Program-made: the position numbers and the translations under genes
In this document: positions 3,800 through 29,551 of the stretch, piece by piece
Position numbering within the stretch: position 1 is the first letter of the stretch
Layout: the number at the start of each line of letters is the position of its first letter
NCBI GenBank assembly: GCA_012026795.1
Contig: VEPM01000028.1
Span: forward strand, 1 to 52,435
Reading direction: 5' to 3'
DNA length: 52,435 bases
DNA from: Candidatus Methanoperedens sp.
GTDB taxonomy: Archaea > Halobacteriota > Methanosarcinia > Methanosarcinales > Methanoperedenaceae
Notes under the pieces: generated by a model
Database searches by the model: none
Told to the model about the DNA's origin: nothing
Seen by the model: only the letters and a program-made list of their open reading frames with translations

Positions 3800-3900
3800 A
3801 CGATTTCACCTGATTTATTTGTATTTAGATGTAATTCGGTATCTCCCATTCTAACAATATAATGAGACAAAGCCGTATATTAGCATGACGCTAATTATCA

Positions 3901-4400
3901 GGTTGCCCAAACTCCTCAATTCACCGGGCGCGCTCACGTCCTGGCTTAGATACAATTTATGACTGGGAAATTAACAAAATGGAATACATATGTCATCGGT
4001 TAAGAGAAAAATCAGAACATAGAACATGGATTGCACGGATGCCGCGGATGCGCGCGGATTGGATATCCGTGTAAATCCGCGTGATAAGCGTCATCCGCGT
4101 TCGATATAGACTAATTGGAGATTTAATAGAAACCATAAAAAGATATATTCTTAGCCATTAAATTCATTAACCGATGACAGATAAGATGGAATAAGTAAAA
4201 AAGGGGGGCTGAAAACGATTAGCTTTAGAAGTGCATGGGATAACTTACGAAAAAACCGCAGATGAACGCAGATAAACACAGATTTATTGCTATGCTTATT
4301 GAAAATAAAACTGAAAACGGATCATCAGCATAAATTATTATCCCTAAACAATAAAATTCAGGTGCGCCCGGAAATCACGATGCGTATCTGTGTTTATCTG
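3901..4400. repeat. Dispersed repeat unit, copy A (split by a small insertion)
   Basis: First copy of a roughly 293-bp unit. It starts near GCCCAAACTCCT, runs through GGGCGCGCTCAC and GGGAAATTAACAAA, and continues after an insert into GTGCATGGGATAACTTACG, AACGCAGATAAACACAG and CAATAAAATTCAGG. Without 207 bp of insert plus target duplication, its length matches copy B at 4523-4815. Most positions are identical between copies. Confidence 0.8.
3987..4185. mobile_element. MITE-like small insertion with 8-bp target duplication
   Basis: A 199-bp insert inside repeat copy A. ATGGAATA occurs immediately before (3979-3986) and immediately after (4186-4193). Copy B of the same repeat has the site only once and uninterrupted, so it serves as the empty site. 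Near its ends the insert carries a perfect 13-bp inverted repeat, TGTCATCGGTTAA (3991-4003 and 4167-4179). Its centre is a GC-rich imperfect palindrome (about 4030-4105). There is no coding capacity, so it would need a transposase in trans. Confidence 0.65.
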
Positions 4401-4413
4401 TGTTCATCTGTGG
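4256..4413. repeat. Long inverted repeat of the 'CACAGATGAACACAGAT' type
   Basis: Arms of about 28 bases at 4256-4283 and 4386-4413 are near-perfect reverse complements separated by about 100 bases. Each arm is built from degenerate ACAGATRAACRCAGAT-like steps. Copy B (about 4675-4705) has only the left arm. Such intergenic palindromes are dispersed in many archaeal and bacterial genomes. A transcript through it could form a long hairpin. Confidence 0.7.
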
Positions 4414-4522
4414 TTCCTTTGTCAGATGAAATAAAAGTATCAAAAATCAGCGCGCCCGAAAGAACACTGATTTCTCCAAAAACCGAATTAGTATTCTGTA
4501 ATTGTCTCTGCACAGTTCATAG

Positions 4523-4815
4523 GGTCGCCCAAACTCCCGAACTTACCGGGCGCGCTCACTTCTTGGCGCATATACAATAGTTGTTACGATTGGGAAATTA
4601 ACAAATGGGAATAAGTAAGAAGAAGGGGCTGAAAATTGATTAGCTTAAGTGCATGGGATAACTTACGAAAAAACCACAGATGAACACAGATGAACACAGA
4701 TTTATTGCTATGCTTATTGAAAATAAAACTGAAAACGGATCATCAGTATAAATTATTACCTCTAAACAATAAAATTCAGGCGCGCCCAAAAATAACGATG
4801 CATATCAGCGTTTAT
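4523..4815. repeat. Dispersed repeat unit, copy B (uninterrupted)
   Basis: Second, direct copy of the unit at 3901-4400, about 120 bases downstream of it. It lacks the MITE-like insert and so gives the pre-insertion sequence. The rest of the non-coding stretch up to 5029 holds only an AT-rich, TATA-like segment (AAATATATTTAAG near 4890), a plausible promoter for the gene starting at 5030. Confidence 0.8.
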
Positions 4816-5029
4816 ATGAGCAATGTTTTATTTGATATTAAACCGGAAAACCTATGATTAAAATAGCCTAAGCGTTTACTCCTAAAGAAAAATATATTTA
4901 AGCTATTGATATAATTAAGTACCATATTTAACATGTTACATAAATAGTAAATCCAGAAAATATGAAGGTTGATGGAGAAGCGGAAATGGTTGCTTGATCA
5001 ATTCAGCTTCCAAAATAGGAAAAGAAGAC

Positions 5030-7608
5030 ATGGGTAGTAAAGACGAGAAAATGGGTTTAAGAAGTATTAAAGATATCAAGAAAGAGGCAGCAAAAAAGTC
5101 GTTGATTTATCTGAAGAAAAATCAAAGACAGAGAATGCGGTAGAAAATTTAATAGAGAAAATAGAAGGTTCTTTTGAAGATGCTCAAAAGCAGACGGAAA
5201 AGAGTGTTTCTGATTTAAATATTAAACGAGTTGATCTGGAAAATACTGTCCACTTCAGAGTGGGTTTGGCATTGGAGGCAGTAAATAAATCAATTGAAAT
5301 ATTAAGGCACACATATGAATGGGTAAGAGCGGATTACCGGAAGTCCATAGCAGTGCCTCTTTCGGTAATGATACTTGTCGAATTTATTTATGTGATCTTT
5401 GTTCCTTATTTCCCATGGATCGAAGATTCGGTTTATGGGATTCCAGTTTTAAAAGTGATCATTGTTATAATAGGTTTCCTGGTTGTTTGCTTTACATATA
5501 CTGTATTACGAAAGATTAATGAAAGATTTCTCATTAGCTTTGAAAATATAGAAAAAATGATAGAAGATTTGAACCAAACAGAGCCTGCAATTGAAGAAAT
5601 AAAGCTTTCAAAACAAGAATTCAATGATACCAGGCCATTTCTTAAAAGCGTTAGGGGATTCTTAGATATTTTGATGTCTGTTGCTGGAGATTCCGTCCCA
5701 TTTATGCAAAAAACATTCGATGAATTGACCCTTCTTGCAAAGTTTGGAGAGAAGGTGGAGAGTTTCGAACTTGCTTTAAACTATTACGGTTTGCTCGAAG
5801 ATAAGATCTTTTTTGCGAGACTAAGTGAATTTGCTCCATCGAAAGCTCATATACTTGATGATGAAAAAGTTTGGGAATATCATATAGTTGAGAGCATAAT
5901 AAATAAGCTCAAGGAACAAGGAGTAAACCTCTTCAAAGATGTAATATTGCTTTTATACCGTGAACATAATGGACTTGAAACTTTAGACATTTTCAGAGCT
6001 ATAAGCACGAAAGAAGAATATATGGAGAGCCTTGCAAGAGTTCTTATTGATAGTAAAAGACTTGTGCAGCCCCCATATAATGATTTCTATAAAACAGAAG
6101 ATATAGTTCCAGTCTTGAAAAAGGTTGGATGTTTCAATCTTTCAGAGATCAATAATGTGCTTTCTAGGTCTCTAAGGCAGTTGGATTACTTAAAATCTTA
6201 TACCGAATTTCTAGTTAAGAATGGTATTAAACCAGATTTTAGGCCCAGCATCGAATTCATAATCGATGAATCTATAAATGAAAATGACGAGTTTGAGCGC
6301 CAAGTTATTAGCTTGGTTTATAAAATTGGAAAAAGAGCTTTTGACAAGATACCCTCATTGGATGATGCTTTCAAAGAAGCGTTTGCAAAAGCTTCTGTTT
6401 CTATCAAATTTCACAATGAAATATCTTTTAGGAAGAACGCATGTGAAATTTCAGCGGATGAAAGGTCAGCTGCCGTGATTACGGCTTACTATGAAAAATC
6501 GAAGGAAATAGGTGCTGTTTTATTAGAAGATTTGCTTAAAGACTTGGATTTAGTTAAATCTTCTTATGATAAAAGGGATGATGTTGAATTCAAATTCTTG
6601 ATTAGCCAATTGAGAGAGGGAAATTGGTTTGACAGCAGTGGTGCCTATATAAAAGCCTTTTTAGATGCATCAAAAAAGGAAATCAAAGAACAGATTTCCA
6701 AGATTGAAAAATTCACAATATTACAGGAGGTCGTTAAGAACACTTTTCAGAAAGTTAGGATCACTACCGTTGAGAAAGCCATTGATGCTCAAGTGTTTGG
6801 CGCATATATAATTATGTTCTCAAAGGGGAGCAAAGGGAGTAAATTAGGGCCATTAGTGAATAAGTTATCCATAAGGGATTTGGAAAATTCAAATCCTGAA
6901 GATAAGTGGCGCTACAAATCTCCTGATGATCTATAAGCCATTGAGAAAACGTATGGATTAAGGCCTAAATATGACTTTATGAATTTTTCAAACAGCACCA
7001 GGATAGGGGTTTTGGACAAAGGAGAAAAATTTCTTGAGTTCAAAAATAATTTTTTGAATGATTTAAAAATAATTCTCAAATTGGAGGAAAAATCCGGCAT
7101 TGGATTAGTGGTTCAAAGAATAACACCTTCTATTTACAGTTTCGGCCAACTTGAATACGAAGATTTAGTAGAAATAAAGGATTTAGATATTGCCAATTAC
7201 ATTGCACTCCTAGCTGGCGACCATATTCCCGAAGCAGACCAAGCAAGCGTAATAAGACTTGATAAAGATGTTGACCTTTTCGAAATTGTAAATATGAAAT
7301 CTATTTATGAACTCATCAAGGTAAAAGGTGAAGATAGCGCAGGTAATGAGAGAAAGATCTTAGAATCACTCGATTTGAAGAAGAAAATTCTAGAAAAGCT
7401 TGGAACAGATTTAAAATCATTAGCATTAGATATAGGTTCTGGGGTAAGAAGTAAGGAGGAAATAACTCCAATAATAAGGGATGTTTTGGAATATAGTTTT
7501 TCATCCCAGTTAGGTTTAAGGGGAAAAGCGAAAGATCGTGCAAATTTATTGTCAAAGCGGTTTTCAGATGTGCTGGAGCAGCTTTCACTCCTCTATAAGA
7601 TGCAGTAG
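5030..7608 (+). pseudogene. Disrupted gene for a large coiled-coil membrane protein of unknown function
   Basis: Three pieces read as one protein. From ATG 5030 a frame starts MGSKDEKMGLRSIKDIKKEAAKK and stops at 5141. The frame one base back is protein-like from about 5098 (VVDLSEEKSKTENAVE) to a TAA at 6934-6936. After that stop the same frame simply continues (AIEKTYGLRPKYDF, then MNFSNSTRIGV) to 7608. Repaired, the product would be about 859 residues: a charged coiled-coil N-terminus, two membrane helices (just after RADYRKSIA, and at PVLKVIIVIIGFLVVCF), and a long, mostly helical charged domain. I do not recognise the family. The GTG at 5260 lies inside the coding stretch and is unlikely to be the native start. 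Two lesions suggest a decaying gene or assembly errors. A programmed shift at the first lesion is possible. Confidence 0.7.
5092..5098 (+). other. A AAA AAG slippery heptamer at the -1 frame change
   Basis: In the frame of ATG 5030 the codons are GCA AAA AAG TCG. Slipping back one base re-pairs both lysine tRNAs on AAA AAA and enters the frame that stays open to 6934. This is the canonical X XXY YYZ -1 frameshift sequence known from bacterial dnaX. I see no convincing stem-loop in the 10-40 bases downstream. A poly-A indel is the simpler explanation. Confidence 0.4.
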
Positions 7609-7716
7609 AAATATTTAAAGAGAGTCTGGTTGTAATGATTATCGCAACATGATAGCATTCGTTAGCAAAATCTACGTTATAATAAAAAAATCACTAAATT
7701 CTTATACCATCGGCAC

Positions 7717-8190
7717 ATGGATGTATTACAAATGACAAGATACCAACCCATTATTGATGTGCTTATAAATAGCGGGGTTTATGACATAGTATATTTTGAC
7801 CATGAAACTGAATTACCTATCCCATATCGGAATATTGGTTTCTTGAAGAGAAATGCTTTGCAAGAACAATCTGGAAAAGGAAGAGTACTTCATAAAAAGT
7901 GGCCTGATGTCTGTGGAATTAGTAATGATAAACTTAAAATAATAATTGAAGAGGAGCGGAAACCGCCAAACAATACAATTGAAGAGGATATAAATATAAT
8001 ATCCAAATGTAAATATCTTTGGGTAGATAACAAAGAATTTCCTTTTGATCCAGAGTGTACTCTTTTTATCCTATTATATAATAACATCAACAGCATACCA
8101 GAGAATGTTATTGAGAATAAAGGTAACCTTAAAAGAATTGTTGTGTGCGATAAGCAATTATTCGAACAGAAATACACACAGTATGTTTGA
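7717..8190 (+). CDS. Hypothetical protein, possible PD-(D/E)xK-type nuclease fold
   Basis: A 157-residue soluble protein of unknown function. Its middle reads KWPDVCG, then after about a dozen residues IIIEEERKP. A PD followed by a hydrophobic strand and ERK resembles the PD-(D/E)xK metal-binding core of restriction-type nucleases, but this is motif reading only. A second ATG at 7732 is an alternative start, and neither has a clear Shine-Dalgarno site. It is a lone gene, low in GC like the disrupted gene before it. The next 218 bases show nothing notable. Confidence 0.6.
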   Translation: MDVLQMTRYQPIIDVLINSGVYDIVYFDHETELPIPYRNIGFLKRNALQEQSGKGRVLHKKWPDVCGISNDKLKIIIEEERKPPNNTIEEDINIISKCKYLWVDNKEFPFDPECTLFILLYNNINSIPENVIENKGNLKRIVVCDKQLFEQKYTQYV

Positions 8191-8408
8191 GGCAATAATT
8201 AAGTAAGATATTGTATCTTGGGATAACTACCAATGCAAATTGAAACGGTAGCATAATGATTAAAGGCACTGAGGGCCAAAGAAGCGAACGAAAATCAATC
8301 AATCCATAGTAAGAGATCGCATTTGAACCAAAAGTTACCAGAGGTATGTAACGACCGATAACAACATTTAATACCAGTCGCAATCATTTCTTCTTGAGGT
8401 GAGAGTGG

Positions 8409-9767
8409 ATGTTCATTGAAAAGCTTGTTTCCAGAGGGCTTGCTCATTTCTCCTATATTGCAGGAAATGATAGGGATGCGTTCGTAGTTGATCCTAAAAG
8501 AGATGTGGATTCGTATATTGAAATTGCGAAAAACAAATGCTGCAGGATACGGTATGTTTTTGAGACGCACTGCAATGAGGATTACCTGATAGGGTCGCTG
8601 GAACTTGAAAAGCTAACAGGTTGCAGGATAATCCACAGCAATCAAATTGATTTTGGCTATGGTGAGCCGACAGCTGAAAATGATACCTTCGACATCGGCG
8701 GCATGAAGATTAAGGTTATTGAAACCCCAGGACACTCCCCGGATAGCCTGAGCTTTGTACTTTATGCGCCCTCCGGGGAAAAACCTCTTGCTGTTTTTAC
8801 AGGGGACGCGCTTTTTTATGGAAATGTAGGAAGGACTGATCTTTTCGGAAGGGAAAAGACGGGTGAATATGCATCTATTCTTTATGACTCTGTGCACGGG
8901 AAACTCCTTTCATTAGGTGATGGAACAATCGTGTATCCAGCCCATGGAGCAGGCTCAGCATGCGGCGGCGCAATGGCAGATATTGTAATAAGTACGATAG
9001 GATATGAGCGAGCCGCAAATCCCATGCTTGATCTCACGCGTGAGGAATTTGTCGAAATGAAAAAGAGAGAAAATATTCCGCTACCCCCTTATTTTGCCAG
9101 GATGGCAGATCATAACCAGAATGGTCCAGGTTTGCTTGAGCCCGGTCGGGTCGAGCCACTGGATGCTACCACGTTCGCAGGCGTTATGTCGAACTCCACA
9201 ATCTTAGATACCCGCTCTCCTACCTCCTTTGCCAGCGCGCATATCAAAGATTCATATAATATCTGGCTCGGAGGATTGCCTTCATTTGCAGGCTGGATCG
9301 TTGATTATGAAAAGGATATCCTGCTTGTGACAGAGAGACAGGAGGATGTTGAGGCAGCGTTACGATATCTTGCAAGGATCGGGTTTGATAAAGCAAGGGG
9401 GTATCTTTGCAAGGGTATCGAAGACTGGGAGGTTCATGGAATGAGTCTTGAGCAAAGCGGTATTTATACCGTGGACAATCTTCATGAGAAACTGGCAGAA
9501 AACGAACTATTTGTGCTGGATGTTCGAAAGAAGGAGGAATACACCGGGGGTCATATTCCTGGAGCCGTAAATATATATGTGGGTGAACTTGAGAAAAGAC
9601 TGTCTGAGGTTCCGCCAGACCGTCCTGTTGTTTCTGTTTGTTCCACAGGCAACAGGTCGGGGATCGGAGCAAGCATCCTGGCGCGCGGGAATTTTAAGAA
9701 TGTGTATAACCTTATCGGAGGCATGAAAGCATGGAAGGAGAAAGGTTATCCTGCAAAAAAAGGTTAA
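8409..9767 (+). CDS. Metallo-beta-lactamase-fold / double rhodanese protein (persulfide dioxygenase-like)
   Basis: A 452-residue protein: MBL-fold domain (about 1-230), then two rhodanese domains (about 255-345 and 355-452). In ETHE1-type persulfide dioxygenases one iron is held by the first His of HxHxDH, a later His and an Asp. Here these read H54 (ETHCNEDY), H109 (GHSPDS) and D133 (TGDALF), and the GRTDLFG and YPAHG motifs are also present. The second motif His is Asn56 and the last is Tyr59, so a two-zinc hydrolase is unlikely while the mono-iron site could stand. The first rhodanese has no catalytic Cys in its loop. The second has C411 (CSTGNRS). The likely role is persulfide or sulfane-sulfur oxidation or transfer in the cytoplasm. 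Confidence 0.85.
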   Translation: MFIEKLVSRGLAHFSYIAGNDRDAFVVDPKRDVDSYIEIAKNKCCRIRYVFETHCNEDYLIGSLELEKLTGCRIIHSNQIDFGYGEPTAENDTFDIGGMKIKVIETPGHSPDSLSFVLYAPSGEKPLAVFTGDALFYGNVGRTDLFGREKTGEYASILYDSVHGKLLSLGDGTIVYPAHGAGSACGGAMADIVISTIGYERAANPMLDLTREEFVEMKKRENIPLPPYFARMADHNQNGPGLLEPGRVEPLDATTFAGVMSNSTILDTRSPTSFASAHIKDSYNIWLGGLPSFAGWIVDYEKDILLVTERQEDVEAALRYLARIGFDKARGYLCKGIEDWEVHGMSLEQSGIYTVDNLHEKLAENELFVLDVRKKEEYTGGHIPGAVNIYVGELEKRLSEVPPDRPVVSVCSTGNRSGIGASILARGNFKNVYNLIGGMKAWKEKGYPAKKG

Positions 9768-9803
9768 AGATTATACATCAAGATATCAAGATGATAACGG
9801 ATC

Positions 9804-10139
9804 ATGAATAGCAATTGTATATTCTGCAACATTATCAGGGGTAAATCTCCTGCAAATTTTATTTATAAAGATGAAAGCTTCGTGGTTTTCCATAATATAA
9901 AACCTTCAGCGCCCGTACATGTCCTGATGGTGCCTGTTGAGCACATTGAAAGTGTCAATGAGCTAAAAGAGCATAATGTGGGGGTTGTATCGAGGATGAT
10001 CCTCAAATCAAAGGAAATAGCTGAGGAACTGGGTATTAAAGACAGCGGTTACAAACTTGTAATAAACGTGGGCAGCGGAGCCGGACAGGTTATATTTCAT
10101 TTGCATATTCATCTTTTGGGTGGATGGAACAAAAGTTAA
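9804..10139 (+). CDS. HIT-family nucleotide-binding hydrolase
   Basis: A 111-residue histidine-triad protein of usual HINT size. The N-terminus has the CIFCNIIRG segment and the central FHNIKPSAPVHVLMVP strand. The signature HLHIHLL gives H99, H101 and H103, the last being the expected nucleophile. Family members cleave phosphoramidate or adenylate bonds of nucleotides, and the physiological substrate cannot be read. It starts 36 bases after the rhodanese gene and may be cotranscribed with it. It converges with the phosphoribosyltransferase gene. Confidence 0.93.
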   Translation: MNSNCIFCNIIRGKSPANFIYKDESFVVFHNIKPSAPVHVLMVPVEHIESVNELKEHNVGVVSRMILKSKEIAEELGIKDSGYKLVINVGSGAGQVIFHLHIHLLGGWNKS

Positions 10140-10141
10140 GG

Positions 10142-10822
10142 TCAGGTGTTTCTCTTTTTCAATAATTCCAATACTTCCTCCTGGGTGAGGTCATGCCATT
10201 CCTCATATGCATCAGCTACGGCAAATATTCTTGTTTCCCGGATGTTAGGGCAGAAAATTTCATCGACATAGGGAGCAACAAGATCGATTGCGCTTTCTGA
10301 TGCAGTTGGAACTGCGACAATGATCTTTGCCGGAGATAGTCTTTTTACGGAACTTATGGCTGCAAGAAGCGTGTAACCTGAAGCCAGCCCGTCATCCACG
10401 ATTATCGCTGTCCTGCCTTTCAGATCAGGAAATGGTCTTTTTCCCCGGAATATTTCCATTCTTTTATCAAGCTCACTTTTGACATCTGCGATTATTGAAT
10501 CGATTTCAGAATCGCTCAATTGAAGCTGTTCCACTAATTTCTCATTTAGCTTCACCTCTCCATTCCAGCTCATCGAACCAAACCCGGCTTCAGTGTTGAA
10601 AGGAACAGGGAGCTTTCTGACGATTATTAAATCCATCCGAAGTCCGAGTTTTTCTGCGATAGCACTTCCTACAGGAACACCTCCCGATGGTATAGCCAGC
10701 ACCATAGAATCTTTTCCGATATAAGGTCTCAGTTCTCTTGCAAGAATTTCCCCTGCATGTACCCTGTCCCTGAATACATGATTTTTATTTCTCAATTCCC
10801 TCTGTTCGATTATTTTTGCCAT
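10142..10822 (-). CDS. Predicted phosphoribosyltransferase (type I PRTase fold)
   Basis: A 226-residue soluble protein. The PRPP-binding loop reads IIVDDGLASGYT (about 140-151), with a hydrophobic run followed by adjacent acidic residues. The N-terminal half has LAIPSGGVPVG, seen in the archaeal and bacterial 'predicted phosphoribosyltransferase' group (COG1926-like), and RKLPVPFNTEAGFGS. Substrate base unknown. It is a single leftward gene, convergent with the HIT gene two bases away. Confidence 0.88.
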   Translation of the reverse strand: MAKIIEQRELRNKNHVFRDRVHAGEILARELRPYIGKDSMVLAIPSGGVPVGSAIAEKLGLRMDLIIVRKLPVPFNTEAGFGSMSWNGEVKLNEKLVEQLQLSDSEIDSIIADVKSELDKRMEIFRGKRPFPDLKGRTAIIVDDGLASGYTLLAAISSVKRLSPAKIIVAVPTASESAIDLVAPYVDEIFCPNIRETRIFAVADAYEEWHDLTQEEVLELLKKRNT

Positions 10823-10981
10823 TTGACTCCCCCGGTATTTGATGCGAACGTTTAATATTAACAGTACTCAGGAAGTTATAAATTCTATGGATATGAAATA
10901 ATATATCATGGAGTGAAGGTTATGCAAATCTGGGAAATCCGGATTGGTTAATCAAACGTTCAAAGTCAATATATCCGTTTC

Positions 10982-20906: not shown

Positions 20907-21665
20907 CTAAAAAAATCTCGATGCAAGAGTGGATTTTACATCGCATATCCCGATAAAACCACAATATTCGCATGGAGCATCTTTCGGTCTTTCGGGCATA
21001 AAACCTTCCTGGATTTTCTTTATCTTATCCATCACCTGCAGGACTTTCCTGCGCTCATGCCGTTTGATAACGACTGGTCTTACGATTCCCCGGCGTACAT
21101 ATTCGACAAATCCCTTTTCAACTATTGAATTGTATTTTTCCTCCACGAGGATTGAATAGGCAGTCAACTGGAGCCGGTCGCTGTTCCAGATACCATTTTC
21201 AGGCATATTGCCTGTTTTTATTATCGAAGGGACAATGCTTTCATTTATTTTTATCAACCTGTCAGGGCTGCCGGAAAATCTGAATTTATCCGAGCGTAAG
21301 ATGGGTTCATCCTGGATGAACTCGCCTGAATAGAAATCGCTATTGTCAGAAAGATTTGAAGAAATTGTTTCGATCAGGGGGCGTATATCTGTTATCGATT
21401 TGGCGATCGCTGCATCATCAATTTTGCTCAGTTCATTACGGTAAATTACACGGATCTCATTTGAGATTCTTTCAAGTTCATTATTCAGAAATGCATGTTT
21501 ATCATTGCTATTAATTGCTGATTGGTATGTCACGGATAATTCTTTTAATATTAATCGTTCCAGGTATCCGGATGAGATTTCACCTATTAATTCATGTCCC
21601 TTGTTGATGAAATAGCACATCCGGGGACATTTAAGGTAAGTGGTAATGTCTGAGACTTTTATCAT
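20907..21665 (-). CDS. Cas4/RecB-like exonuclease-family protein, not linked to CRISPR
   Basis: 252 residues. The N-terminus has YLKCPRMCYF (C13, C17) and the C-terminus CEYCGFIGICD (C232, C235, C241), the cysteine set that holds the Fe-S cluster in Cas4. Nuclease-type residues are D135 (GSPDRL), K150 (IIKTGN), Q166 and Y170 (DRLQLTAY). The acidic residue usually two before the Lys is Ile148, so cleavage may be weakened. No CRISPR array or other cas genes are near, so this is a solo Cas4-like protein. Its first nine codons and promoter are duplicated at 24191-24248. Confidence 0.82.
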   Translation of the reverse strand: MIKVSDITTYLKCPRMCYFINKGHELIGEISSGYLERLILKELSVTYQSAINSNDKHAFLNNELERISNEIRVIYRNELSKIDDAAIAKSITDIRPLIETISSNLSDNSDFYSGEFIQDEPILRSDKFRFSGSPDRLIKINESIVPSIIKTGNMPENGIWNSDRLQLTAYSILVEEKYNSIVEKGFVEYVRRGIVRPVVIKRHERRKVLQVMDKIKKIQEGFMPERPKDAPCEYCGFIGICDVKSTLASRFF

Positions 21666-21697
21666 GGGGTGTGTAAATATCCCGCTTATTTAAAAAT
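21640..21697. repeat. 58-bp direct repeat, copy 1 (5' end and promoter of the Cas4-like gene)
   Basis: Identical to 24191-24248 except for one T/C difference. It covers the first nine codons of the Cas4-like gene plus 32 bases of its promoter, including the TATA-like TTTAAATA. Outside the repeat the two neighbourhoods differ. It may be one attachment-site half of a 2.5-kb insert. Confidence 0.85.
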
Positions 21698-21765
21698 ATT
21701 GCCCATTGAGAATATGTTGGAATTGTTATGTTTCGAAAAACTGATAATTTTCATGCTGTACGAAA

Positions 21766-23595: not shown

Positions 23596-24051
23596 ATGAA
23601 CATTTGTGTTGATACAGGATTTCTGATCGGTCTTTATAGTGAAAAGAATCCACGTGTACACTCAAAAGCAGAAAGTTTATTTGTTCAACATTTTAATGAT
23701 AATATTCAAAATAAATTACTGGTTCCTTGGCCAATCCTCTATGAAGCAGTCGCTACACAAATGACAAAGAGTCAAAAAAGGATGGAGGCTTTAAATAGAG
23801 ATTGGAAATTTCTCTACAGACAAGGTAGACTTGAACTTTTAGACGATAAACCTTTTAGGGAAAAAGCAATTGACGAGTCTTTTGATGAAATGTTGAATGA
23901 CCCATTATATTATAGAGGTTTAAGTCTGACAGATCGGGTAATTAGAAATATGTTGTCCGATCAAAATCTAAAAATTGATTATTTCATAACATTCAACAAG
24001 GGTGATTTCATAGACATTTGTTTACGATGTCATCGAAAATTGTTGGAATGA
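23596..24051 (+). CDS. PIN-domain ribonuclease-like protein
   Basis: 151 residues with the acidic PIN set: D6 (ICVDTGFLIGLY), E50 (PWPILYEAVAT), D113 (LTDRVIRNML) and D137 (FNKGDF). These fit the Mg2+-dependent active site of PIN (VapC-type) RNases. It starts four bases after the preceding gene. The length is somewhat greater than a typical VapC, with an insert of basic residues (QKRMEALNRDWKFLYRQGR). It is likely the effector of a three-gene toxin-antitoxin-like or defence module. From its stop to 24190 nothing is seen. Confidence 0.8.
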   Translation: MNICVDTGFLIGLYSEKNPRVHSKAESLFVQHFNDNIQNKLLVPWPILYEAVATQMTKSQKRMEALNRDWKFLYRQGRLELLDDKPFREKAIDESFDEMLNDPLYYRGLSLTDRVIRNMLSDQNLKIDYFITFNKGDFIDICLRCHRKLLE

Positions 24052-24190: not shown

Positions 24191-24248
24191 GTGGTAATGT
24201 CTGAGACTTTTATCATGGGGTGTGTAAATATCCCGCCTATTTAAAAAT
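24191..24248. repeat. 58-bp direct repeat, copy 2 (truncated 5' end of the Cas4-like gene)
   Basis: Repeats 21640-21697 with one mismatch. On the minus strand it still encodes MIKVSDITT, the first nine residues of the Cas4-like protein, then runs into unrelated sequence and a stop. It sits ten bases from the left target duplication of the transposon. Together with copy 1 it brackets 2.5 kb holding the hairpin array and the PIN cassette. Confidence 0.85.
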
Positions 24249-24257
24249 TTTGTGGAA

Positions 24258-24266
24258 AATGTAAGC
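24258..24266. repeat. Left target-site duplication of the transposon (AATGTAAGC)
   Basis: AATGTAAGC directly abuts the left terminal inverted repeat and is repeated exactly at 29543-29551 against the right one. Removing the element and one copy restores a continuous site. Confidence 0.85.
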
Positions 24267-24283
24267 GGCTTTGTGTAAATAGT
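24267..24283 (+). repeat. Left terminal inverted repeat
   Basis: GGCTTTGTGTAAATAGT, whose partner is the complement at 29526-29542. The inner part (TTGTGTAAATAGT) resembles the nearby iterons, so the transposase may recognise one motif throughout. Confidence 0.8.
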
Positions 24284-24288
24284 CGCTT

Positions 24289-24321
24289 CTGTGTATAAAG
24301 TCAAGTTTCTGTGTATAAAGT
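24289..24321 (+). repeat. Left subterminal iterons (2 x CTGTGTATAAAGT)
   Basis: Two identical 13-mers at 24289-24301 and 24309-24321, start to start 20 bp. The same pair recurs at the right end with the same spacing. Probable transposase-binding sites. The rest of the non-coding stretch up to 24419 holds nothing else. Confidence 0.75.
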
Positions 24322-24419
24322 AGGCTCAGGTGAAACTTGGGTATTAAAAAATAGAGATATTGAATTTGTGGTTAGTTAATCTAATGGAATAAATATTAAT
24401 AATATCAAAAATGATATAA

Positions 24420-24644
24420 GTGGGTGATATTATTAATACAGAGTATCAAAAGCCTATTGACCATCCAGACCCTCATGCAAAAATATTAAAGACGAAGCGT
24501 TATGCAAACAAAGTGAATAATAATGCAAATAGGCTATTGGCTAAAGAAACGAACGGGAAACTACAAGAAAGTGATTTGGAAGCTTTTAGATTGCTCATTG
24601 GAAGGGAACCTAAAACAGGTTCAGTGAGATGCTATAAGAAATAG
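24420..24644 (+). CDS. Small charged hypothetical protein (transposon cargo)
   Basis: 74 residues from GTG 24420. An in-frame TAA directly precedes it, so no earlier start exists. Basic, no membrane helix (DPHAKILKTKRYANKVNNNA, LLAKETNGKLQESDLEAFRL). The C-terminal LLIGREPKTGSVRCYKK is Lys/Arg-rich. It could be nucleic-acid-binding, but no family is recognised. Confidence 0.5.
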   Translation: MGDIINTEYQKPIDHPDPHAKILKTKRYANKVNNNANRLLAKETNGKLQESDLEAFRLLIGREPKTGSVRCYKK

Positions 24645-24724
24645 TTCTCTGTTAAGTTTATGTGGTAAGTGTTATTAATTATCATGAGATACTATTAGAT
24701 TAGGTAGCACTAAACAAGGTTATT

Positions 24725-24982
24725 TCAATTCGGAGTGTGGCTTTGTTCTCTTTCTGATAACACATTTTCTATCTCTTCTAATTGGTCTTCATAATAATCA
24801 TAAATTACATATAAAATTGCTCCGATAATCATTGCTATGTAAAAAACAAACCATTTTGGAGCTAATTTGTAATCTAATCCTATTTCAAGTATTGTTAATG
24901 GTGCTACCAACATAGCACCTAAAAAAATATTACTCTTACCTCTTAATCTCTCATACTTGAGTTCTATTGCCAAATTAGGCAT
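24725..24982 (-). CDS. Small two-helix membrane protein (transposon cargo)
   Basis: 85 residues with two hydrophobic helices (about 19-37 and 46-64: FLGAMLVAPLTILEIGL, WFVFYIAMIIGAILYVIYDY) and a charged acidic tail (EDQLEEIENVLSEREQ). TAGGGA precedes the ATG. It lies 16 bases after the other leftward membrane gene, so a two-gene operon is likely. Family unknown. Confidence 0.65.
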   Translation of the reverse strand: MPNLAIELKYERLRGKSNIFLGAMLVAPLTILEIGLDYKLAPKWFVFYIAMIIGAILYVIYDYYEDQLEEIENVLSEREQSHTPN

Positions 24983-24998
24983 TAAAAATCCCTACAAA

Positions 24999-25247
24999 TT
25001 ATCGCTTGAACAGAATATAGACTCCGACTACAAACATTATTAAACCGATTAATGGGTCTAATTTACCTAAAGGTGTTATTTTTCCTAAGATAGGATAGGT
25101 CTGGGGATTTGTAAGTGCAAAAAAACCATAAAATATTAAGAATAATAAAAAAGCAGCCAGCACTACATCCATTGGAGTTGTTCTATTTCTATTTCTTGGC
25201 GGCACATCATCACCAACACCGATTATGGTGTCATGAGATATATCCAT
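24999..25247 (-). CDS. Small two-helix membrane protein (transposon cargo)
   Basis: 82 residues from ATG 25247 (MDISHDTIIGVGDDVPPRNR). A longer frame reaches a TTG at 25304 but would include a GGAGGAGGTGAT run and a TATA-like TATATAAAAAG that look like control sequence. Two helices (VVLAAFLLFLIFYGFFAL and LIGLIMFVVGVYILF). First gene of the leftward pair. Function unknown. Confidence 0.6.
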   Translation of the reverse strand: MDISHDTIIGVGDDVPPRNRNRTTPMDVVLAAFLLFLIFYGFFALTNPQTYPILGKITPLGKLDPLIGLIMFVVGVYILFKR

Positions 25248-25502
25248 TTCTCTCTTTTTATATATCACCTCCTCCTGACAGTTAGGATTTTGTGTATCGT
25301 TCAAGTCAAATCAACTCTTTTTTGGCGCTACTTTCTTAATGAGTATTGAAGTAATACGACTATAAAAGACTGTTGTTTTCATTAATGAGCGATAGGATTC
25401 TGGTTTGCTCAAGCTTTGCACTTAAAGTCCTGATTTTTTGCAGATTTTAGGTGCGGATTAATTATTACATCACTATCCTTAAATATAACACCAGCTTAAT
25501 AA

Positions 25503-25661
25503 ATGCGAAAAATGTTAAATGAATTATCACTCTTTACAATAGCTGTTGGAATAGGCACGATAATCAGTGCAATAGTAGGTGTAGTAAAAGTAGTATTGAA
25601 ACGACATAAAATATTCAACGAGATAAGATTGTTGCACAAATTTTTGATTGATAAAAATTAA
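25503..25661 (+). CDS. Very small membrane protein (52 aa, transposon cargo)
   Basis: 52 residues with one helix (LFTIAVGIGTIISAIVGVVKV) and a basic tail (LKRHKIFNEIRLLHKF), a typical single-pass topology with the tail inside. It lies 15 bases before the next rightward membrane gene, so cotranscription is likely. An AT-rich TATA-like tract (CCTTAAATATAAC, near 25480) precedes it. Confidence 0.55.
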   Translation: MRKMLNELSLFTIAVGIGTIISAIVGVVKVVLKRHKIFNEIRLLHKFLIDKN

Positions 25662-25676
25662 AGTATTAGAAGCAAG

Positions 25677-25988
25677 ATGAGTCATTTAAAGGAACAGATA
25701 TTACTATCATCTGCCGAAATAATGAAGATGGTATTATTATTTTCTTCGTTACTTTTAGGAATGAAATATATGTTGCTTTATGATAGATGCAACAATGCTT
25801 GGAAAATGCTACCTAAGCTCCAATGTGAACCTGAAATTAGTACGAACTTAGTGACTGCTGGTATTATATTTTTTGTTTATTTCTGGTGTTTATTATATGT
25901 TTTCGGGCACGAGAAAAAAGAGCCGAAAAAATTGGATGATGATTTCGTCCCTTACCCAATAAAAGTAGAAAGCGAAAAAAGAATGTGA
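25677..25988 (+). CDS. Two-helix membrane protein (transposon cargo)
   Basis: 103 residues with helices at about 15-34 (MVLLFSSLLLGMKYMLL) and 58-77 (LVTAGIIFFVYFWCLLYVF), joined by a loop with two cysteines (C38, C50) that could pair outside the cell. Charged C-terminal tail. No family recognised. Second gene of a rightward pair. Confidence 0.65.
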   Translation: MSHLKEQILLSSAEIMKMVLLFSSLLLGMKYMLLYDRCNNAWKMLPKLQCEPEISTNLVTAGIIFFVYFWCLLYVFGHEKKEPKKLDDDFVPYPIKVESEKRM

Positions 25989-26043
25989 AAAAGGAAATTC
26001 AATTAAGACTCTTGATTGGAGAGCTACCACTACAATTTCATAT

Positions 26044-26223
26044 TCAAAGTTGCATCCCCTTCTCTACAACAATTCTTTTCTTTCCATCAGCTTCGACTAC
26101 AGAAACAGTTACAATTGTTTTATCATTCCATTCAAGCTCTTTAGCTTCAGGTGTCACAAAAACGACATAGTTATCATGCCAGCGTACCACCTTCTTGGCT
26201 TTTTTGGATATAATATTCTCCAT
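26044..26223 (-). CDS. Small beta-rich protein, possibly AbrB-like (59 aa, transposon cargo)
   Basis: 59 residues, MENIISKKAKKVVRWHDNYV and on, with ELEWNDKTIVTVSVV and RIVVEKG. The alternation of short strands around a W-x-D-K turn is like the swapped-hairpin AbrB fold (compare AKWKAGDKIDIEID in the gene at 27199), but shorter. It could be a DNA-binding regulator or a Sul7-like protein. The call rests on codon continuity and protein-like composition. Confidence 0.5.
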   Translation of the reverse strand: MENIISKKAKKVVRWHDNYVVFVTPEAKELEWNDKTIVTVSVVEADGKKRIVVEKGMQL

Positions 26224-26322
26224 ACTACTATCTAAATAAAAATAGCACGGTAAAAACGGTAAACGTGCTAAACACGTTATTTTTAAATAGTTGTAATAAT
26301 ATATTTAGTATAGGTGGCAAAA

Positions 26323-26955
26323 ATGGATAAACAAAAACACAAGTTAAATGTCTATTTGGTATACTTAGTAGGTCTGCTATTTCTCAGTCCAATAATTGCG
26401 AGCGCAGATGTGATAATAAAGGGAGAGGATATAATAATATCACAGGGAATAATAGGCACAAAGCCGAAGATTGTAGACGTTATTTTTGTTCCAAATGTAG
26501 ATGAACAATATTTTTTTGATAGCGATGGCAAACAAAAAGAATTTAATGTTGGCACTGTAAGGGTAACCTTTCAAAATATTGGCGATGGGCTTTGTTTTTC
26601 TGGTGTAGTATGTCCTGTTACTGTTGAGATAAAGGGAAGTAAATTTGGTTATTCTATCGGAAGCATCAATGAAAGCAGTGGATTTTATATAAATCCTTAC
26701 GGTATTGGCATTGCAGTTTTTGATGCTAAATTAGACGCCAATGAGACACAAATTGGAGAAATCATTACTGATAGTCCTACTATTATTGCAACAAGTGATA
26801 ACAAGCCAAATGGAGTACGCTATGAAGATACTAAAGTGCTAAATAACGTTAGATTTAAAGTTCCTGGAAAACCTGCTGGAAAGGCTCCTGGATTCCAAAT
26901 TGTATATGCTCTTGGAATAACGTTGCTCGCTTTTTACTTACGTAGCCATAAGTAG
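26323..26955 (+). CDS. Secreted surface protein with PGF-type C-terminal sorting signal (transposon cargo)
   Basis: 210 residues. ATG 26323 follows AGGTGG by five bases and is preferred over GTG 26314. N-terminal signal peptide (LNVYLVYLVGLLFLSPIIASA), a beta-rich body (IIISQGIIGTKPKIVDVIFV, VRVTFQNIGDGLCFSG), then APGFQIVYALGITLLAF followed by basic YLRSHK. PGF plus helix plus basic tail is the archaeosortase substrate signal known in Methanosarcinales, so the mature protein is probably lipid-anchored at the cell surface. It is unusual as cargo on a transposon. Confidence 0.75.
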   Translation: MDKQKHKLNVYLVYLVGLLFLSPIIASADVIIKGEDIIISQGIIGTKPKIVDVIFVPNVDEQYFFDSDGKQKEFNVGTVRVTFQNIGDGLCFSGVVCPVTVEIKGSKFGYSIGSINESSGFYINPYGIGIAVFDAKLDANETQIGEIITDSPTIIATSDNKPNGVRYEDTKVLNNVRFKVPGKPAGKAPGFQIVYALGITLLAFYLRSHK

Positions 26956-26984
26956 GCAGATTTTTATCTCCTACATCCCTTTTC

Positions 26985-27197
26985 TTATCTATAAGCCCGC
27001 CAGTAATCCCTGTTGCCTCTTTGCTGTTTATCTATCCAGCCACGTTTATGAAATTCCTTAAGGTACTTATCAGCAGTATTCCATGATACGTTGGCAATTT
27101 CGGCTACCTGTGTTGTGTTAAGATAATAATTGTGCTCCACTAACGCTTTTAAAATTCGTGATTCCTGCGGTTTCAACTGTGGTTTTGGATTTGGCAT
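26985..27197 (-). CDS. Winged helix-turn-helix protein (transposon cargo)
   Basis: 70 residues. A MarR/GntR-like recognition unit: ESRILKALVEHNYYLNTTQ, VAEIANVSWNTADKYLKEF, then a wing with GWIDKQQRGNRDYW. It starts one base after the AbrB-like gene, so both come from one message. Likely a DNA-binding regulator of the element. Confidence 0.8.
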   Translation of the reverse strand: MPNPKPQLKPQESRILKALVEHNYYLNTTQVAEIANVSWNTADKYLKEFHKRGWIDKQQRGNRDYWRAYR

Positions 27198-27198
27198 T

Positions 27199-27426
27199 TT
27201 AATCAGCCTTGGCTTTTCTTAACTTCAATCCTTCGTCATCGATTTCTATATCGATTTTGTCCCCGGCTTTCCATTTCGCTTCTTCAATAATCCCTGTAGG
27301 GATTTTTATCGAAAATTGCCTGGCAGTAGCATCGTACAACAATGTAACATTTTTTTTGATTGATACTGGCTCTTTTAGTCTGATTTCCGCCAAAATCTCA
27401 GGTGGGATTCTTGGTTTCTCATTCAT
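27199..27426 (-). CDS. AbrB/SpoVT-type DNA-binding protein (transposon cargo)
   Basis: 75 residues. The C-terminal half is an AbrB-type swapped-hairpin domain (FSIKIPTGIIEEAKWKAGDK, IDIEIDDEGLKLRKA). AbrB proteins bind DNA as dimers and often act as antitoxins or autoregulators. First gene of a two-gene leftward operon with the winged-helix protein, divergent from the transposase over a repeat-rich 142-base gap, so it may control transposase expression. Confidence 0.82.
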   Translation of the reverse strand: MNEKPRIPPEILAEIRLKEPVSIKKNVTLLYDATARQFSIKIPTGIIEEAKWKAGDKIDIEIDDEGLKLRKAKAD

Positions 27427-27568
27427 TATGTGAAGATAGACTATTATAGTATATAAATATATGTTTTTAGTCTTTTATGGATTAAAAGTCTTTTTTCACG
27501 TAAAGACTTATATACTTTTAAAGCAATTATGTAATAATAGACTTATAAAACATAAATAGGTGAGAACT
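27427..27568. promoter_or_regulatory. Divergent promoter/operator between element regulators and transposase
   Basis: An AT-rich gap with repeated short motifs: AGTCTTTT at 27469 and 27487, the near-palindrome AAAAGTCTTTT, and AGACTTATA at 27504-27512 and 27539-27547, 35 bp apart. TATA-like runs face both ways. AGGTGA precedes ATG 27569. It looks like an operator region for the AbrB/winged-helix pair. Confidence 0.5.
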
Positions 27569-28813
27569 ATGGAAGCTATGGATATGAGAAAAATAAAAGG
27601 TCAGCAAATAGCTGCTTCATGCAGAATAGTTAAAACCGATAAAGGCTGGCAAGTCCCATCACAATCAGGACATGGGACTTATTTAGTATATACCGAATCT
27701 TTACTGTCCAAGCCAAAATGCACATGCCCTGACCACGAATCAAGAGGAGTAATCTGCAAGCATATCTATGCTGTCGAATTAACTTTGAAGAAAGAAATCG
27801 ATGTAGATGGCAATACTACAATAACACAGACCAAAAAAATCACATACTCTCAGGATTGGAAGGCATACGACCAAGCCAAGACCAAAGAAAGGCTTCTGTT
27901 TCTTGAATTACTCAATGACCTGTGCAAAGGTCTATCAAATCCAGAATATAAGTTTGGAAGACCTACTTTACCAGTATCAGACATGGCATTTGCATCAGCC
28001 CTTAAAGTATACTCTACATTCTCCTTGAGGAGGTTTACAGGCGACATGGAGATTGCTAAAGAAAGAGGGTATATAGACCAAGTACCATGCTTTTCAGCAG
28101 TAGGACATTTCATACAAAGAGAGGATTTAACACCTGTATTGCTGGAATTGATACTGAAATCTGCATTACCACTTAAAGAAGTCGAACATGATTTCGCAGT
28201 GGATAGTTCTGGCTTTTCTACATGCAGATTCGATAGGTGGTTTTCCTTCAAATGGGGACGTGAAATATCATCCAGAATATGGATAAAAGCCCATCTTATA
28301 AATGGAGTAAAGACGCATATTGTTACTGGCATAAAGATAACAGAAGCTTATGCCAATGACAGTCCACAGTTCCCAGAACTCGTAAGCGCAACAGCCGAGA
28401 ATTTCCAGATTAACGAGGTCTCAGCAGATAAGGAATATTCAAGCAGGAAGAACTTTGAAGTCGTCTCCTCCTTAGGTGGAACTGCTTTCATTCCATTCAA
28501 GAGCAACGCTACAGACAAGCAAAGAGGCTCGCCAATCTGGAGCAAAATGTATCATTACTTCATGTATAACAAGGAGATGTTTTTAGAGCATTACCACAAG
28601 AGAAGCAACGTGGAAACAGTATTCCACATGATAAAAGCCAAATTTGGCGATTCAATAAGGAGCAAGACAAAAACAGCACAGGTAAACGAGGTATTGCTCA
28701 AAATCCTCTGCCATAACATCTGCGTGGTAATTCAAGAGATGTTCGAGTTGGGCATTCAGCCCAATTTTTGTAACCAAAATCTTGCTTGCTTACCAAGCAA
28801 CGAGAAGGCTTAA
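27569..28813 (+). CDS. Transposase, SWIM zinc finger plus IS4-type DDE domain
   Basis: 414 residues from ATG 27569. An N-terminal SWIM zinc finger (KCTCPDHESRG, then CKHIYAVEL, about 50-75) probably binds the element ends. The RNase-H-like catalytic core has D212 (FAVDSSGFST), D287 (VSADKEYSSRKN) and E349 (KRSNVETVFHMIK), the DDE triad with the Y-2-R-3-E-6-K-like arrangement of IS4-superfamily enzymes. The gene looks intact. It is the only recombinase in the element and the evident motor for its movement. GTG 27560 is an alternative start. Confidence 0.92.
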   Translation: MEAMDMRKIKGQQIAASCRIVKTDKGWQVPSQSGHGTYLVYTESLLSKPKCTCPDHESRGVICKHIYAVELTLKKEIDVDGNTTITQTKKITYSQDWKAYDQAKTKERLLFLELLNDLCKGLSNPEYKFGRPTLPVSDMAFASALKVYSTFSLRRFTGDMEIAKERGYIDQVPCFSAVGHFIQREDLTPVLLELILKSALPLKEVEHDFAVDSSGFSTCRFDRWFSFKWGREISSRIWIKAHLINGVKTHIVTGIKITEAYANDSPQFPELVSATAENFQINEVSADKEYSSRKNFEVVSSLGGTAFIPFKSNATDKQRGSPIWSKMYHYFMYNKEMFLEHYHKRSNVETVFHMIKAKFGDSIRSKTKTAQVNEVLLKILCHNICVVIQEMFELGIQPNFCNQNLACLPSNEKA

Positions 28814-28909
28814 AATTCTTATTTCTCTTTTTTAACATATAACAAAGTATAAACGAACATATTGCAGAAGACACTATTATAATGTTAAAAATAGTGATAG
28901 GTTGTAGTC

Positions 28910-29422
28910 ATGAATGTTACATTGATAAGCGTAATAGTTGCATTGGCAGTGTTAATTTTAAAAATGGAGTTCTCTTCAAAGCGGATTAATGATTTTATGA
29001 CCTTTTACGATAAATCACTATCTGATTTGGCGAAAGCAGAACAAAAAAGAATAATTGATGAAAAACAACATAACAACGCTGCGAATGAAATTAATAAATA
29101 TTATAAGGATTTTACAAAAGGTTATGTTGGTTATGTTATATTAAAATTGATTAAACCTGCTGAATGGTTAAAAAATTTTTTACCTATGCTCTTAATATTT
29201 GAAGTATTACATATTACTTTACAGGAATTTGGGTGGTCTGGTTTTTACGATGGAAGATATCCTGGGCTGAATAAACTATATGTGGTAATTATAATTTTGT
29301 TTATAATTTTTATTATGTTTGTACATTTAGCTTTTGAACTATTTATGTCTGATAAAAAAATTCGTGACTTAGAATCTAAAATTGCGTCAGTTATAGCGAG
29401 GTATATTTACGATATGCTCTGA
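28910..29422 (+). CDS. Membrane protein with central coiled coil (transposon cargo)
   Basis: 170 residues: N-terminal helix (VTLISVIVALAVLIL), a charged coiled-coil stretch (NDFMTFYDKSLSDLAKAEQK ... NAANEINKYYK), two more helices (about 90-108 and 120-146, LYVVIIILFIIFIMFVHLAF), and a short cytoplasmic tail. No family recognised. Last gene before the right end, 97 bases after the transposase, with its own TATA-like tract. Confidence 0.7.
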   Translation: MNVTLISVIVALAVLILKMEFSSKRINDFMTFYDKSLSDLAKAEQKRIIDEKQHNNAANEINKYYKDFTKGYVGYVILKLIKPAEWLKNFLPMLLIFEVLHITLQEFGWSGFYDGRYPGLNKLYVVIIILFIIFIMFVHLAFELFMSDKKIRDLESKIASVIARYIYDML

Positions 29423-29478
29423 CCTTTATATCCTGATTCCCAGACTCACAACTTTCGGTATCAGCTTTTTTACCATTC

Positions 29479-29511
29479 CTGTGTAAAAAGTGGTATGTCT
29501 GTGTATAAAGT
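29479..29511 (+). repeat. Right subterminal iterons
   Basis: CTGTGTAAAAAGT (29479-29491) and CTGTGTATAAAGT (29499-29511), 20 bp start to start, as at the left end. They face the same direction as the left pair rather than being inverted. The terminal repeat itself is inverted. Confidence 0.75.
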
Positions 29512-29525
29512 TACTGGGTTTGGCT

Positions 29526-29542
29526 ACTTCTTACACAAAGCC
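29526..29542 (-). repeat. Right terminal inverted repeat
   Basis: ACTTCTTACACAAAGCC, the complement of the left end with two mismatches, directly followed by the target duplication. Confidence 0.8.
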
Positions 29543-29551
29543 AATGTAAGC
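29543..29551. repeat. Right target-site duplication (AATGTAAGC)
   Basis: Exact copy of 24258-24266, abutting the right terminal repeat. Confidence 0.85.

Follow-up and report, generated by a model that had tools for sequence, protein, structure and literature searches.

The 52,435-nt stretch of Candidatus Methanoperedens sp. DNA analysed here (the window, contig VEPM01000028.1) carries a transposon of 5276 bp, whose element proper occupies positions 24267-29542 by direct reading of the window sequence. Its terminal inverted repeats (TIRs) are 20 nt long with 17/20 positions identical, the 9-bp direct repeat AATGTAAGC abuts both ends, and between them lie one intact transposase gene, two regulator genes and 7-8 small passenger open reading frames (ORFs). 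Here we describe this element together with its relatives in archaea and bacteria. An earlier account, made from the sequence alone and referred to below as the sequence-only reading, had reported a complete cargo-carrying transposon at 24258-29551. Ends, intact transposase, regulators and passenger genes were all confirmed, and self-mobility is presumed. The 17-bp TIRs (15/17) of that account are the same feature as the 20-nt repeats and its perfect 9-bp duplication touching both ends is exact; its coordinates denote the same element but include both copies of the duplication. The features are listed below (aa, amino acids; TM, predicted transmembrane segments).

24258-24266, no strand: target-site duplication, left copy AATGTAAGC, exact match to 29543-29551
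24267-24286, plus strand: left terminal inverted repeat GGCTTTGTGTAAATAGTCGC, 17/20 against the right end; the same GGCTTTG ends in 40+ relatives
24289-24321, plus strand: pair of subterminal boxes CTGTGTATAAAGT at 24289 and 24309, directed inward as is the terminal box; same array in relatives
24420-24644, plus strand: passenger ORF, 74 aa, no family
24725-24982, minus strand: passenger ORF, 85 aa, 2 TM
24999-25304, minus strand: passenger ORF, 101 aa, 2 TM
25503-25661, plus strand: small ORF, 52 aa, 1 TM, uncertain gene
25677-25988, plus strand: passenger ORF, 103 aa, 2 TM
26044-26223, minus strand: passenger ORF, 59 aa, no family
26314-26955, plus strand: passenger gene, 213 aa, N-terminal hydrophobic/signal-like segment
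26985-27197, minus strand: winged-helix regulator, 70 aa, TrmB-like (Pfam 2.2e-6)
27199-27426, minus strand: AbrB/MazE-like regulator, 75 aa, divergent from the transposase (MazE_antitoxin 8e-5, just below cut-off)
27569-28813, plus strand: transposase, 414 aa (417 aa from the upstream GTG at 27560), SWIM finger C51-C53-C63-H65, DDE residues D212, D287, E349
28910-29422, plus strand: passenger gene, 170 aa, 2 TM, no relatives found
29479-29511, plus strand: two subterminal boxes CTGTGTAAAAAGT / CTGTGTATAAAGT, oriented toward the right terminal box
29523-29542, minus strand: right terminal inverted repeat, reverse complement from 29542 being GGCTTTGTGTAAGAAGTAGC
29543-29551, no strand: target-site duplication, right copy AATGTAAGC, exact match to the left copy

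Ends and their architecture

The whole window and 100 Markov-1 simulated windows of the same dinucleotide make-up were screened for any exact 9-mer duplication flanking an inverted repeat of at least 17/20. The window yields this one pair alone and the simulated windows yield none (0/100); at a looser match of at least 12/20, 8.5 pairs occur per shuffled window. The element has TIRs with a target duplication of fixed length and an intact DDE transposase between its ends, as expected of a DDE unit transposon. It is not a composite of two insertion sequences (ISs), as there is one transposase and the ends consist of 20-nt repeats and short boxes; nor is it Tn7-like, as no TnsB or TnsC is found among its ORFs and the duplication is 9 bp, not 5 bp.

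The box TGTGTAWAAAGT recurs as an iteron at 24271, 24289 and 24309 on the plus strand, at 29479 and 29499 on the plus strand and at 29526 on the minus strand. At the end upstream of the transposase the terminal box is followed by one to three direct copies spaced every ~18-20 nt (TTGTGTAAATAGT, CTGTGTATAAAGT and CTGTGTATAAAGT in the window), and at the downstream end the terminal box (29526) is followed by oppositely oriented boxes that face it (29479 and 29499). The same asymmetry recurs in most of the related elements described below. Among these the subterminal box covaries with the terminal repeat (TGTGTA/TGTGTA, TGTTTAA/TGTTTAA, TGCCCAA/TGCCCA and TGTGGCG/TGTGGCG), which is the trace that a box-reading transposase would be expected to leave. 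The family-wide target duplication is 9 bp: with the inverted repeat as the sole criterion for matching ends, 37 of the resulting 55 pairs are flanked by a duplication exactly 9 bp long, and lengths of 4-8 bp or of 10 bp and above do not occur. No 9-bp duplications appear when the right flank is shifted by 20 nt as a control. No consensus is evident among the target sequences across the family.

The transposon family and its cargo

Elements were called by reading outward from each transposase to an inverted repeat with an exact 9-mer. This delimited 43 elements, two of which are the same element in two genomes; two more, L229 and L230, come from genera of that order other than the window's own (loci are labelled L, genomes G), which makes 44 distinct complete elements of 2.35-9.1 kb, none of them bare. 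The window element and 43 further ones share (R)GCTTTG ends, subterminal boxes, a 9-bp duplication, a related transposase and cargo, with two of the 43 starting CGCTTTG. Their hosts are DPANN archaea, Methanosarcinales, Eremiobacterota, Chloroflexota and viral-labelled contigs; the label archaeal given in the sequence-only reading is too narrow, as bacteria also carry the family.

Transposase relatives at 53-65% identity come mainly from DPANN archaea (Aenigmarchaeota, Nanoarchaeota, Pacearchaeota), those at 39-50% identity from Eremiobacterota, Chloroflexota, other Methanosarcinales and viral-labelled contigs. One 53% match lies on a 3.7-kb contig of a Fusobacteriaceae metagenome-assembled genome (MAG) and could reflect misbinning. 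Sampling of two DPANN phyla gave transposase matches at E<=1e-60 in 42 of 371 and 21 of 156 genomes; with the L030 transposase as the query, 14 of 149 Eremiobacterota genomes had such a match. The transposase tree places the window element together with those of Aenigmarchaeota (SH-aLRT 92, not starred). Relatives whose transposases are 39-66% identical terminate at the same GGCTTTG with 9-bp duplications, and not elsewhere, a point on which the sequence-only reading had made its proposal depend.

A small DNA-binding gene usually stands directly upstream of the transposase and divergent from it. It encodes a zinc ribbon (C..C.HEW...CP.CKS.YW) in about 15 elements, including L023, L025, L030, L068, L080, L207, L229 and L230, a ribbon-helix-helix protein in about eight, and AbrB in the window and its sister L020. 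Where tested, the zinc-ribbon gene matched no Pfam family above cut-off. By its position, this regulator slot would naturally be taken to control transposition.

The cargo of the family is enriched in restriction-modification (RM) genes. A DNA methyltransferase confirmed by Pfam is present in 24 of the 44 elements, usually inside an RM system, and the PADLOC calls agree with Pfam on RM cargo. The types comprise N6_Mtase/Eco57I/TaqI enzymes with HSDR_N, type III Mod with a ResIII helicase, EcoRI-type and D12 enzymes, N4/N6 enzymes with Mrr-like or BstXI nucleases, and C5 enzymes with HNH or Vsr. A tblastn search with the cargo methyltransferases found relatives in 21 of the 44 elements (222 kb) as against one segment in 519 kb of flanking DNA.

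Cargo is exchanged freely between elements, with turnover even between close transposases. The transposases of L025 and L068 are 89% identical and their cargo is unrelated; those of L023 and L027 are 81% identical, one element carrying RM and the other membrane proteins. Between elements with transposases at 43-61% identity, an accessory PD-(D/E)XK gene retains 73-80%. RM cargo lies scattered on the transposase tree: mapped as a label it requires 14 changes, the mean for shuffled labels being 13.8.

Some individual cargo genes are recorded here as side observations. A PD-(D/E)XK (RecB/Cas4-like) gene stands beside RM cargo in L186 (6416-7063), L199 (5176-5820), L200 (6261-6914) and L026 (10219-10983), 48-80% identical among elements with distant transposases. 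L183 (10286-11689) and L211 (7605-9038) have in common a cargo protein of ~470 aa, 43% identical and without Pfam match, which is a candidate defence gene. L207 and L208 are an identical 8209-bp element in two different MAGs, at the same site judging by complementary duplications, with type III Mod, ResIII helicase and a DUF2779-type nuclease as cargo. In L029 two elements (3319-6932 and 6971-10911) lie 38 nt apart with the same flanking 9-mer CGCTGCTCG, possibly a tandem or the result of repeated targeting of one site.

The transposase, its bare cousins and a parallel family

The window transposase ORF is intact and matches the Pfam families SWIM (3e-6) and DDE_Tnp_1 (1.9e-20). The SWIM residues C51-x-C53...C63-x-H65 and the DDE residues D212, D287 and E349 are invariant across 13 aligned members. 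The AlphaFold2 model built on this alignment has a mean pLDDT of 73.7; its fold matches to known structures are weak, with ISCth4, Tn5 and integrases at the head of the list. SWIM is present in 37 of the 44 transposase ORFs; a simple equation of SWIM presence with cargo is weakened by the cargo of a SWIM-less clade (L183-L186).

The sequence-only reading had called the transposase IS4-type, which does not agree with the model scores: the nearest NCBIfam model is IS5_2 at about 123-124 bits (cut-off 140), and IS4_1 reaches 33.5 bits (cut-off 115). Four family members score 122-133 bits with IS5_2, all under the cut-off. Among the matches listed from plasmid and phage records there were only IS5-like ones at 24-28% identity. 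The DDE_Tnp_1 catalytic domain is common to the window family and the IS5 family, whose IS5_2 model is the best of the transposase models tested; the window family differs in scoring below the curated cut-off, in its extra N-terminal SWIM, in its end-specific box arrays and in always carrying cargo, its members being 2.35-9.1 kb and not compact. With the IS4 family the window transposase shares the DDE_Tnp_1 superfamily and a weak fold match to the Tn5 transposase. Duplications of 9 bp occur in the IS4 family (Tn5/IS50). We classify the window family as a DDE unit transposon that is nearest to IS5 and is marked by a new end architecture and by cargo that is obligatory.

The same order also contains bare ISs, 1364-1529 bp in length, namely L248 (6010-7538), L249-L252, L254 and L258. 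They have SWIM-less transposases at 22-24% identity, GGCTTTGGGACAAAAT-type ends and 9-bp duplications, and are likely its cargo-less cousins.

Among the 186 genomes of the order, 11, all of them from the window's genus, contain a second type of cargo transposon. It has a related SWIM module (39-47% identity over 65-90 aa) on a DDE_Tnp_IS240 (IS6-like) catalytic domain and is represented by three elements:

L242, 3151-8144, plus strand: second-type element, 4994 bp
L243, 3427-7875, minus strand: second-type element, 4449 bp
L246, 2766-7545, plus strand: second-type element, 4780 bp

All three have GGTTCTGT ends (GGTTCTGTCAAATCT), an end box repeated subterminally and 9-bp duplications. L242 and L246, the two tested, carry type I HsdM and HsdS as cargo. 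L242 and L243 have divergent AbrB and winged-helix genes in the same order as the window, the winged helix being 31-39% identical to that of the window (39% over 57 aa for L243). The second type thus resembles the window family in its SWIM N-terminus, subterminal boxes, 9-bp duplications, AbrB and winged helix, and RM cargo, but differs in catalytic domain and ends and is a separate transposase family. SWIM module, regulators and RM cargo are present in both families and therefore recur on two unrelated catalytic cores. At odds somewhat short of even, a SWIM domain with repeated end boxes may be a general cargo-carrier device that became linked on two or more occasions with unrelated DDE cores (IS5-like and IS6-like) and in each case gave rise to a one-transposase transposon with 9-bp duplications, specialised in moving RM and defence genes among DPANN archaea, their likely hosts and bacteria.

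Interpretation and insertion history

The favoured reading, with a probability of about 0.93, is that positions 24267-29542 of the window hold an intact representative of a family, widespread and apparently undescribed, of unit transposons that have one transposase each and are specialised in the carriage of passenger genes. We propose that the transposase would bind the terminal box and the array of subterminal boxes, whose orientation is fixed but different at each end, with SWIM, or the N-terminal domain replacing it, as the likely DNA reader. It would then pair the ends, cut via its DDE RNase-H domain and insert the whole unit with a 9-bp stagger. The small divergent DNA-binding gene (AbrB and winged helix here, zinc ribbon or ribbon-helix-helix elsewhere) probably represses the transposase. 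Cargo is swapped between elements and most often consists of RM systems, which would protect or addict the host.

Several observations weigh against this reading. The boundary calls of four of the 44 elements are weak (L183, L185, L187 and L202). SWIM was not seen in seven of the 44 ORFs, namely in the clade L183-L186 and in three that are broken or incompletely read; since that related clade carries cargo, SWIM is not an absolute requirement. Only one copy of the window element is present in the 3.59-Mb genome of its host, and no movement was observed. No further copies or MITE-like ends were found in that genome, GGCTTTGTGTAA being exact only at the two ends and one-mismatch matches lying near control level. 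Finally, the window cargo is not RM and is predicted to consist of orphan small membrane or secreted proteins without recognisable relatives. For the 213-aa protein, the other 185 genomes of the order yielded nothing beyond one weak partial match, the 170-aa protein has no relatives in 12 genomes of sister elements, and neither has relatives in viral contigs. The suggestion in the sequence-only reading that the element moves envelope genes is therefore unproven, since its cargo lacks detectable relatives and its sisters mostly carry RM.

By analogy to the RM genes of its sisters, the window cargo might be a membrane-acting defence or addiction module. Association favours this, with RM in 24 of the 44 elements and small membrane proteins among the cargo of the non-RM sisters L027, L029, L035, L180 and L187; against it, there is no homology to any tested family, none is detectable between the window's membrane proteins and those in equivalent positions in other elements, and envelope adaptation or decay may explain the cargo equally well. 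We regard such a module as possible but rather doubtful.

It is far less probable that the element is an ordinary IS5-like IS which once trapped neighbouring genes, a one-off and not part of a cargo-specialised family. The closest curated model is indeed IS5_2, and the distant cousins, which likewise have GGCTTTG ends and 9-bp duplications, are ISs of 1.36-1.53 kb that bear no cargo. The census largely refutes this explanation, as all 44 delimited elements carry cargo, methyltransferase genes are concentrated in them, and the box arrays at the ends are conserved along with the regulator slot. Still more improbable is an integrated virus or plasmid in which the small membrane proteins would serve in the virion or in conjugation: several small membrane or secreted proteins with AbrB and winged helix do occur in some archaeal mobile elements, but no Pfam match to an integrase, capsid, ATPase or replication protein was found in the window element, its ends are those of a DDE transposase with a 9-bp duplication, same-ended sisters carry RM, and the viral contigs searched held no virion or replicon with the 213-aa or 170-aa gene minus the transposase. 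The simulated windows, and the same ends at dozens of independent loci, refute the idea that a stand-alone transposase gene merely happens to be flanked by a short inverted repeat and a 9-mer, even though 9-mers often recur in AT-rich DNA.

As a rule, prokaryotic transposons with cargo either are multi-protein systems (Tn7, Tn3) or are composites of two ISs. Tn7 has multiple binding sites that are arranged differently at its two ends, a likeness to the window family. Tn7-like transposons with defence cargo are known (PMC8649781) and, like the window family, are unit transposons with interchangeable, often defensive cargo; the window family differs in its one transposase instead of TnsABC(D/E/Q), its 9-bp and not 5-bp duplications, its size of 2-9 kb and in that no fixed attachment site was seen. 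Mobile RM systems have been described between two IS copies or moving in co-integrates (PMC3031569). There too RM travels with transposase-bearing DNA, whereas in the window family it is internal cargo of one unit transposon. No matching description of a SWIM-transposase cargo family was found in the open-access literature searched, in provisional agreement with the sequence-only reading, which had called the element apparently undescribed; ISfinder and most subscription reviews lay outside the scope of this search.

The family offers a concrete, sequence-delimited vehicle for the movement of RM genes in archaea, notably in tiny-genome DPANN, whose routes of gene transfer are poorly known. An always-cargo, single-transposase family beside bare cousins makes the tolerance of long elements by a transposase testable, and mechanically definable ends provide a way to discover new, possibly defensive, gene families by reading the cargo between them.

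The perfect duplication and intact transposase are compatible with a fairly recent insertion. In the comparison with related genomes that the sequence-only reading had suggested, the right flank runs uninterrupted through (T)TAAGC|GCAAACTATTTAT without the element in G044 and G070 of the same genus, but the left flank is not homologous there, which also tells against the reading favoured here; the empty site is therefore one-sided. A joined-flank search for a clean two-sided empty site found the right side alone conserved. Close to the left end, a 62-nt direct repeat (97% identical) occupies 21640-21701 and 24191-24252 of the window, with 5 nt between its second copy and the left target duplication. 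This repeat is also present in other genomes of the genus, and the 2.55 kb between its copies contain a PIN-like gene (23596-24051).

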